A stretch of 12,869 nucleotides of DNA from an uncultured Bacteroides sp. Lineage in GTDB: Bacteria; Bacteroidota; Bacteroidia; Bacteroidales; Bacteroidaceae. Below are positions 2,923 through 7,885 of the stretch, piece by piece. Below the pieces are notes generated by a model. The model was not told the DNA's origin, did not search any database, and worked only from the letters and a program-made list of their open reading frames with translations. The stretch spans positions 1-12,869 of the forward strand of contig CAAEFE010000004.1 of NCBI GenBank assembly GCA_900755095.1, written 5' to 3'. Within the stretch, counting starts at the first letter, position 1, and each line of letters begins with the position of its first letter. Position numbers and translations under genes: made by a program.

Positions 2923-4933
2923 ATGAATATAAGAACAAAAATATTATATATATCAAACACTATTTTGCGCATTCCTGTCACTCTTCGTAGCTTGCGATGA
3001 CTTAGAAGACAAGTCGACTTCAACAACCATAGATGGTAATATTACAGAAACCGGAACAGCCGAAATATACATATTAAGTGAGGGTTTGTTCAACTTGAAC
3101 AATAGTTCATTAGCTAAATATTCATTCAAAAGCAACAAACTAGTCAAAAACTATTTTAAAGACTTGAATAAGCGTGGGCTAGGTGATACAGCCAACGACA
3201 TTGCACTCTACGGAAGTAAACTGTATATTGTAGTGAATGTATCAAGTACCATTGAAGTAATTGACTTCCAAACAGGTATATCGATCAAACAAATCCCCAT
3301 GTTTACGGATAATGGAAGTTCCAGACAACCACGCCATATCGCTTTCTATGAAAACAAAGCATATGTATGTTCGTTTGATGGAACAGTAGCACGTATTGAT
3401 ACGACTTCGCTGCAAATAGAAAGTTTCACAAAAGCCGGAAGAAATCCGGAAAACATTTGTGTTAAGAATAAGAAATTGTATGTCTCCAACTCTGGAGGAT
3501 TAGACTATTCGGAAGGATTAGGGGTAGATAATACAGTCTCCGTTATCGACATCGAATCTTTCACCGAAATAAAAAAGATAGAAGTTGGTCCTAACCCCGG
3601 CTGTATTTCACCAGGACCGGACGAAGCGGTCTATGTGGCAACTTATGGAAGCAATATTGCAGACGGAGATTTTAACTTTGTGAAGATTAATAGCCAAACG
3701 GACGAAGTAGAACGCATTTATAACGAAAAAGTGATGAACTTTGCCATCGATAATAACAACATAGCCTATCTATATAATTATAATTACAATACCGAAGCAT
3801 CGTCTATCAAAGTACTAAACTTAAGAACCGGAGAGACGATACGGGAGAATTTCATCACAGATGGAACTAAGATTAGTACTCCATATAGCATTAATGTCAA
3901 CCCTTATAGTGGTAATGTGTATATCACAGAAGCATATAGCTATACGATAACCGGAGATGTATTATGTTTCAATACAAACGGTCAATTATTATTCAGATTA
4001 AACCGTATCGGTCTCAATCCCAACAGTGTCATATTTAGCCAAAAAGCATCGACTGGGGATAGTGACGGAGAAGAATCCGACCCGAATGCCCCCTCTGCTT
4101 TTGCCAATAAAGTATTAGACTACAATCCGGCTCCCAGTCAATATATGAATACTGTTACCACTGCTTATAAAGAGAATTATACCGCTGAAGAGGTTAGAAA
4201 ATATGCAGAAGAACAATTGAAAGATACCGACCTATGCTTGATTAGTCTTGGAGCATATGGTGGTTATATCACAGTAGGATTCGATCATACCGTTCCTAAT
4301 GTCCCGGGTGAATACGATCTTAAGATATATGGTAACGCATACTATGATATGTTCGGAACATTGACCGGTGCTCTCGGGGGAAGCTCTGAACCTGGTATTG
4401 TATTAGTGTCCAAAGACACTAATGGAAATGGATTAGCAGATGATGAATGGTATGAACTGGCAGGAAGTGAATATAACTCTCCTGCTACGACCAAAAATTA
4501 TACAATCACATATTATCGCCCATCCTCTCCGAAAGAAGATGTTAAGTGGACTGACAATAAAGGTAATGAAGGATATGTATATCGGAATGATTACCATACA
4601 ACAAATTCTTATTACCCAGCATGGATAAAGGAAGATCAAATCACATTCCACGGAAGTCGTCTGAAAGATAATACAGTGAATGAACCGCATGAAAATATGC
4701 CCGAACATTGGGTGGGTTATTGTTATGCCTGGGGATATGCCGATAATCATCCGAATGGAGAAGAACAATGTAAATTCAAAATAGACTGGGCAGTAGATAA
4801 GAACGGAAATCCTGTCGTATTAGATGGAATCGATTTTGTAAGAATCTATACGGCAGTCAACCAAAATAGTGGATGGATGGGAGAAATCTCCACAGAGCTA
4901 CAGGCCGTTGAAGATTTACATTTCAAGAAATAG
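2923..4933 (+). CDS. Surface lipoprotein, beta-propeller plus C-terminal domain (BtuG-like), frameshifted in the signal peptide
   Basis: The body is an intact frame of about 650 codons. It holds a YncE/BtuG-like beta-propeller (from YILSEG near 3068 to about 4030), an acidic linker (GDSDGEESD), and a C-terminal domain with a calcium-loop-like DTNGNGLADDEW stretch and WGYAD and GWMGEIS motifs, as in Bacteroides 'cell surface protein' entries. The lipobox LFVAC is in this frame with the lipid cysteine at 2993-2995, followed by DDLED, which suits surface export. However, the only good start, ATG at 2923, is in another frame and stops at 2998-3000 after 25 codons; the body's own frame has TAA at 2930-2932 and no ATG in between. 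Two added bases in the TATATATAT tract (2945-2953), or one base fewer in A5 (2937-2941), would give a normal protein of about 670 residues. It may be a pseudogene, a phase-variable gene or a sequencing error. The B12-binding role is inferred from position and family. Confidence 0.8.
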
Positions 4934-4973: not shown

Positions 4974-6293
4974 ATGAAGAAAATGAAATTCCTAATCAGC
5001 CAACTTTATCTGTTGGCATTATTCGCACTGCCATTTGTTTCAACATCATGTAGTGATGACGATGACAATAGCACAAAAGTAGAAATTTCCAGTTTAGGTG
5101 TAGAAGATGGAACTACTATAGTAACAGGACAAATTATTCAACTTGAAGCTCAATTAAGCAACCCACAAGGAGAAGTTCATTACTCATGGTCAACAGCTGG
5201 AAAGGAAGTCTCTACCCAAAGCACTTATACTTTTCAAAGTGATGTCACAGGAACTCACACGATAACGCTAACTGTAACAGCCAACAATGAAGCGCAGGAA
5301 AAAAGTATTAATATAATAGTCGTTAAACCACCATTCTATGTTATTAATGAAGGTCAAGGCAAAGGTTCTGTTAATAGATACAAACAGGAACAATGGCAAT
5401 ATAATATAGTAGAAGGACTAGGAGTAACTTCAACTGTAGGTATTATCAATAACGGTTATATGTATATCGTTAGTAAAAAAAGTCCTTTCCTTGTTAAAAT
5501 GAATTTGGAAAATAACCAAATTGTAAATAAGATAGAAGACGGGTTGGACCAGAATGCACAAGGACAAAACTTTTGCATTGTTAATAATGAAACTGGTATT
5601 CTTACAACTAGTAATGGAGCATTCAAAGTTAATTTAAAGCAATTGACATTAGGTGAAAAGTTATCAGGTTTAGATGCAGTTAGTAGCGATAATGAAGATA
5701 TATATAAAACAGACAAATACATATTTATTAGTAGCAAAAACACAATTAAAGTATATAATACTAATGATCTTTCCTTTAAACAAGACATAGCCTACCAAAT
5801 AAAAACAGGATTCGCCCAAACCAAGGATGGCACATTATGGGGCGCAAATGGCAACAAATTAATTAAAATCAATGTAGAGACATTAGATTATGAAGAAGTT
5901 GAATTACCTAACGGACTTAGTGTTTTTTATAACCAGTGGGCCTATACTCCTACAGGATTATGTGCATCTATAACAGAGAATGCATTATATTTAGTACAAA
6001 TGTTTGAAGAAGGTTACAGTGTATATGGCAAGAACATTTATAAATATAATGTAGAAACAAAAAATGCTACCCTATTCTTCTCTGCTCCTGCTGCTGATAA
6101 ATCGGTATATGGAGCAGGTGTTCAAGTCGATCCCAGAAATGGAGATGTATACATTATCTATACAGAAGACGGATGGTCGACACATTATTTAAATACTAAT
6201 ATTTACATAGCAAATGGAGTCACTGGTACTCAAAAAGAAGTAATTGATTATACTGGTACTTATTGGTTCCCATCGACTATAGCCTTTCAATAA
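4974..6293 (+). CDS. Surface lipoprotein with PKD-like domain and beta-propeller (DUF5074/BtuG-like)
   Basis: This 439-residue lipoprotein probably helps bind corrinoids at the cell surface. A lipoprotein signal peptide ends at STSC with the lipid cysteine at residue 26, followed at once by SDDDD, an acidic run typical of surface-exported Bacteroidetes lipoproteins. Residues about 36-117 look like a PKD/Ig-like beta-sandwich (YSWSTAGKE, GTHTITLTVT). Residues about 119-439 form a propeller-like repeat opening with YVINEG, which resembles YILSEG at the start of the preceding gene's propeller, so the two bodies appear related. It lies 40 bases after that gene and before a strong terminator, so it is probably the last gene of the B12 operon. 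Codon use is noticeably AT-rich compared with the downstream housekeeping genes. Databases may name it DUF5074 or YncE-like; the exact corrinoid role (BtuG or BtuH type) is not proven. Confidence 0.85.
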   Translation: MKKMKFLISQLYLLALFALPFVSTSCSDDDDNSTKVEISSLGVEDGTTIVTGQIIQLEAQLSNPQGEVHYSWSTAGKEVSTQSTYTFQSDVTGTHTITLTVTANNEAQEKSINIIVVKPPFYVINEGQGKGSVNRYKQEQWQYNIVEGLGVTSTVGIINNGYMYIVSKKSPFLVKMNLENNQIVNKIEDGLDQNAQGQNFCIVNNETGILTTSNGAFKVNLKQLTLGEKLSGLDAVSSDNEDIYKTDKYIFISSKNTIKVYNTNDLSFKQDIAYQIKTGFAQTKDGTLWGANGNKLIKINVETLDYEEVELPNGLSVFYNQWAYTPTGLCASITENALYLVQMFEEGYSVYGKNIYKYNVETKNATLFFSAPAADKSVYGAGVQVDPRNGDVYIIYTEDGWSTHYLNTNIYIANGVTGTQKEVIDYTGTYWFPSTIAFQ

Positions 6294-6511: not shown

Positions 6512-7885
6512 ATGGAATTACCTTTTGCTGAATCATGGAAAATCAAGATGGTAGAACCCATCCGGAAAAGCACACGTGAAGAGCGTGAGCAATGGATTAA
6601 AGAAGCACATTATAATGTCTTTCAACTCAAATCAGAACAAGTTTATATCGATCTCATCACCGACTCCGGCACCGGAGCGATGAGTGACCGTCAATGGGCG
6701 GGAATGATGCTAGGTGATGAAAGCTATGCCGGAGCGACCTCATTCTTCAAGTTGAAAGAGATGATTACGAAACTAACAGGATTTGAATACATCATACCAA
6801 CCCATCAGGGACGTGCCGCTGAAAATGTTCTTTTCTCTTATTTGGTACATGAAGGAGACATTGTGCCCGGCAACTCACATTTTGACACCACCAAAGGGCA
6901 CATCGAGGGACGTCATGCCATCGCATTAGACTGCACCGTCGATGCAGCCAAACAAACCCAACTAGAAATACCGTTTAAAGGAAATGTAGACCCTGATAAA
7001 TTACAGAAAGCCCTCACAGAATACGCTGAACGGATTCCTTTTATCATCGTCACCATCACCAACAATACAGCCGGAGGACAACCCGTCTCCATGCAAAACC
7101 TGTACGAAGTACGTGCCATCGCCGACAAATATGGCAAACCTGTACTTTTCGACTCTGCACGTTTTGCCGAGAATGCCTACTTCATCAAAATGCGCGAAGA
7201 AGGTTACCGAGACAAAACGATCAAAGAAATCACACGGGAAATGTTCTCTCTTGCCGATGGCATGACAATGAGCGCCAAGAAAGACGGAATCGTCAATATG
7301 GGCGGATTTATTGCCACGCGACGTGCAGACTGGTATGAAGGCGCAAAAGGCTTCTGTGTACAATACGAAGGCTATCTCACCTACGGAGGCATGAACGGAC
7401 GGGATATGAACGCCCTCGCCATCGGACTGGACGAAAACACCGAATTCGACAACCTCGAAACACGTATCAAACAAGTGGAATACCTGGCAAAGAAACTGGA
7501 TGAATACGGAATCCCTTACCAACGCCCAGCCGGAGGACACGCCATCTTCATTGATGCGCCTAAAGTGCTGACACATGTTCCTCGAGAAGAATTCCCGGCA
7601 CAGACGCTAACTATAGAGCTCTACCTGGAAGCCGGTATCCGTGGATGTGAAATCGGTTATATCCTTGCCGACCGTGATCCGGTGACCCATGAAAATCGCT
7701 TTAACGGCCTTGACCTACTTCGTCTCGCAATCCCCCGCAGAGTATATACCGACAATCACATGAATGTAATAGCTGCCGCCCTCAAAAATGTATATGAACG
7801 CAGAGAAAGCATCACTCATGGAGTACGTATCGCCTGGGAAGCTCCCTTAATGAGACACTTCACAGTTCAATTGGAAAGATTATAA
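6512..7885 (+). CDS. tnaA: Tryptophanase (tryptophan indole-lyase)
   Basis: This cytoplasmic PLP enzyme splits L-tryptophan into indole, pyruvate and ammonia. At 457 residues it has the normal family length. The PLP lysine is the second K of MSAKKDG (residue 257). THQGRAAEN (97-105) and DSARFAENAYF (214-224) are cofactor-site motifs. Two sites separate it from tyrosine phenol-lyase: FDTT at 124-127, where the lyase has FTTT, and Ile381 in CEIG, where the lyase has an arginine that binds the phenol ring. Both favour tryptophanase. The gene has its own promoter and follows a strong terminator, so it is independent of the B12 operon. A hairpin follows its stop. It resembles the Bacteroides tryptophanases known to make gut indole; PLP and not B12 is the cofactor, so adjacency to the corrinoid genes is not functionally obvious. 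Confidence 0.95.
   Translation: MELPFAESWKIKMVEPIRKSTREEREQWIKEAHYNVFQLKSEQVYIDLITDSGTGAMSDRQWAGMMLGDESYAGATSFFKLKEMITKLTGFEYIIPTHQGRAAENVLFSYLVHEGDIVPGNSHFDTTKGHIEGRHAIALDCTVDAAKQTQLEIPFKGNVDPDKLQKALTEYAERIPFIIVTITNNTAGGQPVSMQNLYEVRAIADKYGKPVLFDSARFAENAYFIKMREEGYRDKTIKEITREMFSLADGMTMSAKKDGIVNMGGFIATRRADWYEGAKGFCVQYEGYLTYGGMNGRDMNALAIGLDENTEFDNLETRIKQVEYLAKKLDEYGIPYQRPAGGHAIFIDAPKVLTHVPREEFPAQTLTIELYLEAGIRGCEIGYILADRDPVTHENRFNGLDLLRLAIPRRVYTDNHMNVIAAALKNVYERRESITHGVRIAWEAPLMRHFTVQLERL

Follow-up and report, generated by a model that had tools for sequence, protein, structure and literature searches.

The gene described so far that lies closest to the one treated here is BtuG1/BtuGH of Bacteroides thetaiotaomicron (BT_1490), whose product is chain B of the BtuB1-BtuG1 complex 8BLW. 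It is a full-length two-domain protein with a lipoprotein leader, and the gene adjoins btuB and has a cobalamin riboswitch upstream. The name btuG1 is found in PMC6143338, BT_1490 is tabulated as BtuGH in PMC12751083, and genes of the btuG1/btuGH type and their pairing with btuB are treated in PMC10404256 and PMC12751083. The gene presented below has the same two domains and the same setting, but differs in that its start codon and its lipobox are split between two reading frames.

A frame that hangs on a repeat of non-triplet units just after the start codon is also what characterizes the simple-sequence-repeat contingency genes of Neisseria, Haemophilus and Campylobacter. The tract in our gene is however far shorter than the tracts held to switch, and btuG1 is without demonstrated on and off alleles and its orthologs are constant in frame. 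For dinucleotides, PMC5953494 gives a cut-off of at least 8 units in its methods and of 6 in a table note; the same paper omits dinucleotide groups from one of its counts with the reason that evidence is lacking, and mentions switching at dinucleotide tracts in other Gram-negatives. For CA repeats, 4-10 units are classed as 'mutable' in PMC4235727, with 1e-7 to 1e-5 events per division, and more than 10 units as hypermutable. Within the genus itself there is the phase variation of surface nutrient capture by invertible promoters (PMC11868660), which resembles our case in function but works by DNA inversion, whereas the btuG1 described here appears to have lost one repeat unit.

Results

The window, by which we mean the whole analysed stretch of 12,869 nucleotides from an uncultured Bacteroides sp., contains a B12 locus on the plus strand. 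It begins with a cobalamin riboswitch aptamer (RF00174, 474 to 673; 92.9 bits in Rfam against a gathering threshold of 31.5), upstream of an intact btuB1-like gene for a TonB-dependent B12 transporter of 681 aa (858 to 2903). This product has the Pfam TonB receptor and plug domains, its top NCBIfam matches are B12 receptors, all scoring under the cut-offs of their families, and its residues 1-681 align at 83% to those of the B. finegoldii locus L004. The gene that follows (2923 to 4933) is by homology a btuG1/btuGH gene, encoding a propeller that binds B12, to which a BtuH domain is fused. Its body matched 8blw_B over query residues 1-614 (E 1e-264), the solved chain 8ptd_A matched the G domain at query 1-323 (window 3086 to 4054), and 7biz_A, which is BtuH2, matched the last ~280 residues at query 334-611 (window 4085 to 4918). 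Both the pairing of a propeller G domain with a BtuH domain and the position beside btuB in a locus under riboswitch control are thus as in BtuG1/BtuGH, and the trait that is absent is a start codon in frame with the signal peptide and lipobox.

On the 3' side of btuG1 lies an intact lipoprotein gene with PKD and DUF5074 domains, also on the plus strand (4974 to 6293; Pfam, ORF list and L004 alignment), where BT_1490 is instead followed by btuJ1 (IPR027828, PMC12751083). It is a second propeller lipoprotein within the B12 locus, and a relative at 60% is found at the equivalent position in L004. Being downstream of btuG1, it may suffer polarity from the frameshift. Tryptophanase (TnaA, 6512-7885; ORF list and family matches) comes after the B12 locus in the window and was unmatched in the 9.8 kb of L004, so the neighbourhood of the locus is not alike between the species. 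The Bacteroides promoter pattern gave 0 matches in the window with 0.56 expected, which is uninformative.

The ATG at 2923-2925 opens a frame of 25 codons that ends in a TGA at 2998-3000. The body frame (codons 2924+3k) opens after the TAA at 2930-2932 and continues to the TAG at 4931-4933. It holds EQKYYIYQTLFCAFLSLFVAC|DD, first the remainder of a signal peptide with the lipobox Cys (2933 to 2995, plus strand; the Cys of ...LFVAC|DD at 2993-2995), which has no start codon, and then the mature body with its two domains (2996 to 4933), and there are 646 codons from the lipobox Cys to the final residue. In the leader there is an A5 run at 2937-2941 and the tract TATATATAT of 4.5 TA units at 2945-2953. 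The first ATG, GTG or TTG of the body frame, and the sole one ahead of the G domain, is the TTG at 3086, which is 31 codons beyond the lipobox Cys and was rejected as an alternative start as it is past the lipobox; with CTG or ATA as the start, the leader would, as we read the sequence, be too short or uncharged. An earlier sequence-only reading had placed the ATG, the A5 run, the TA tract and the stop after 25 codons correctly. It was also right in that the body frame is without a start codon of its own, in its arithmetic that two bases more or one fewer would join the frames, and in its view that a B12 surface lipoprotein has here had its lipobox cut off from the start codon by the break; this lipoprotein can now be named BtuG1/BtuGH.

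Extra stops, frameshifts and excess replacements, as would be expected of a decayed pseudogene, were not found in the rest of the gene, which agrees with what the same reading had claimed. The body is open to 4931, and its alignment to P0002, a protein that represents 1101 member sequences, has 6 differences in 662 residues. Compared to L004 the body is 84, 92 and 49% identical at codon positions 1, 2 and 3, and NG86 estimates are dN 0.12 with saturated dS for the btuG body, dN 0.11 and dS 3.8 for btuB, and dN 0.29 and dS 3.3 for the PKD-DUF5074 gene. To judge from the alignments the btuG body has the look of one on which selection has acted for a long time, dN/dS being a measure that reflects old selection and is silent on the time since the frame break. 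The tested genes are free of any further frame break: BtuB and the PKD-DUF5074 lipoprotein align to L004 over their full length, TnaA is matched by its family over 1-457 of 457, and MutY has the same length as a 99% relative. An undecayed body implies that the break is either recent or an error.

Among the best 120 of 2838 matches in the protein search, 23 proteins were examined, and 8 of them (P0002-P0008 and P0019) are apparently from the same species. The tract is in the off state in the window and in the on state in these proteins, all 8 crossing it in a single frame, a count to be read with the bias of protein databases for full-length proteins, by which off-state copies could be hidden. 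They have in common the leader MNIRTKILYI-Y/C-Q-T/A-LFCAFL-S/P-LFVAC, residue 11 being Tyr in 7 and Cys in 1 (P0008). The two frames of the window encode the same residues up to the tract and from it onwards, so that the difference is one TA unit inside the tract; the tract is thereby implied to be one unit shorter than in the intact copies, which would have 5.5 units as deduced from the protein. A break in the A5 run was rejected, since the relatives retain the residues 5' of the tract (MNIRTKIL), and of the two sites that had been suggested earlier only the TA tract is left. In six of the proteins (P0003, P0004, P0005, P0006, P0007 and P0019) the match is near-perfect until residue ~490-610 and the BtuH part is strongly divergent, which could be due either to paralogs having exchanged their H domains or to chimeric metagenome assemblies. 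No genome of the same species was present among 158 Bacteroides genomes, the best match having 74% DNA identity, and a search for the gapped pattern across the tract in viral contigs found nothing.

The ortholog survey matched 48 Bacteroides genomes, loci from 30 were fetched with the 18 weaker ones left out, and leaders were read at 39 of the 40 fetched loci, L010 being without a G domain. Start and lipobox are joined in frame in all 31 distinct leaders (39 loci), 27 of them with ATG and 4 with GTG, and the break in the window is, at the level of sequence, a real departure from its orthologs. The GTG leaders belong to L015, L016, L017 and L026, which have no ATG leader start and were considered as off-state orthologs until their DNA showed GTG starts in frame. 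The apparent GTG start lies within VKRKLIYIF, and near relatives have an ATG slightly upstream. TA tracts in the distinct leaders measure 3 to 10 bases, with at least 8 in 15 of the 31. Counting TA units across related genomes had been proposed as a check on switching; the lengths vary but the frames are never broken, and from these leaders tract length among orthologs seems simply to drift without frame breakage. They may well be a side effect of the Tyr and Ile codons that such an AT-rich leader uses.

The tract itself does not stand out clearly from what chance would give. In the window TATATATAT has 2 matches with 0.27 expected, and at least 2 were obtained in 12 of 200 shuffles. The other copy is at 5698-5706 on the minus strand, inside the PKD-DUF5074 gene, where it leaves the frame unharmed. 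TA 11-mers occur 7 to 34 times per genome, counted over both strands together, in six Bacteroides genomes, and such tracts are thus normal but sparse; long TA repeats were not found in these six, in which the longest run is 14 bases.

Discussion

The explanation that we prefer, and hold to be rather probable, is that the window carries a recent frameshift null allele of btuG1/btuGH, arisen at an ordinary low rate by the loss of one TA unit in the signal-peptide codons. What we observe is two frames, a unit missing in comparison to the same-species proteins, and a body without decay. The unit was probably dropped in an ordinary low-rate replication slip, after which translation from 2923 would yield only a peptide of 25 residues. 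A body without its signal peptide would not be exported, and BtuG1 would be missing from the surface, while a restart at the TTG at 3086 would produce a leaderless protein. We infer that the cell does carry this change and that it lacks the product. BtuB1 would then be left without its BtuG1 lid and other B12 loci would have to compensate. That such a loss is tolerated is plausible, as multiple btuB-btuG loci are frequent in Bacteroides; B. thetaiotaomicron has three, and its strains with BtuB1 only are poor competitors (PMC10404256).

Next after a recent null allele we rank the possibility that the gene is intact in the cell and that the missing TA unit is a sequencing or assembly artefact, which we find doubtful but worth taking seriously. 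An artefact would leave the remainder of the gene undecayed, just as it is, and the same-species proteins, 8 of 8 in frame, are also what an error would predict. On the other side, BtuB, the PKD-DUF5074 lipoprotein, TnaA and MutY have no further frame break, and a dinucleotide tract of 9 bases is read easily by most methods.

The sequence-only reading had left the choice between recent loss and reversible slipped-strand switching. The undecayed body and the in-frame proteins of apparently the same species fit a recent loss or an error, and the short tract and the 31 of 31 leaders in frame speak against switching. Phase variation in the proper sense, where frequent and reversible changes of tract length toggle BtuG1 in the population, we regard as very unlikely even if it has some features in its favour: a difference of one repeat unit right after the start codon is the classic geometry, 15 of 31 distinct orthologous leaders likewise have TA tracts that measure 8 to 10 bases, and Bacteroides do switch outer-membrane genes for nutrient uptake, though via DNA inversion (PMC11868660). 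The number of repeats is however not in the hypermutable range that defines phase-variable genes, as 4.5 units, and the 5.5 implied in intact copies, are under the published cut-offs. Within the 'mutable' class of 4-10 units both numbers are near the bottom. All 31 distinct leaders are in frame and their tract length is unconserved, the tract does not clearly exceed chance, and in P0008, apparently of the same species, a Cys inside the tract interrupts the repeat. Besides the window there was no off-state copy among the 31 distinct orthologous leaders or the 8 apparently same-species proteins, and a literature search, judged by title, gave nothing on Bacteroides B12 genes that switch by way of repeats. 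The idea of phase variation as a layer of control over the riboswitch thus finds a short tract, leaders that are all in frame and no second off copy.

A slow reversion of the allele is possible, and rare reversion is plausible from the 1e-7 to 1e-5 per division given for the class of 4-10 dinucleotide units (PMC4235727). One can extend this to a slow stochastic switch on top of the riboswitch, acting on BtuG1 as the lid and B12 trap of one uptake complex. By gain and loss of a TA unit in the signal-peptide codons of btuG1, a small part of the population would shed a surface protein that is costly or exposed to phage, and be fed by sister B12 loci; the switch would draw its raw material from the TA tracts measuring 8 to 10 bases that roughly half of the orthologous leaders have, but we see this as a long shot, about as improbable as frequent switching. 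Least probable of all is low-level expression by a ribosome or RNA polymerase that slips one unit on the TA tract, in the ribosomal version by a Tyr tRNA that re-pairs two bases back to regain the body frame, since the geometry of the TAT/ATA codons would allow such a slip to reach the body frame but two-base backward slips are rare, a known recoding signal was not identified and the 31 distinct orthologous leaders require no slip.

Conclusions

On present evidence the frame break in btuG1 marks either a commonplace frameshift allele or an error. If the tract were to switch, a nutrient-uptake lipoprotein would here be controlled by slippage, in a genus where phase variation is ascribed to DNA inversion (PMC11868660). 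BtuG lipoproteins are central in the competition for vitamin B12 in the gut, and if the allele is real, a natural BtuG-loss strain would be a ready test of how far the btuB-btuG loci of Bacteroides can substitute for each other.
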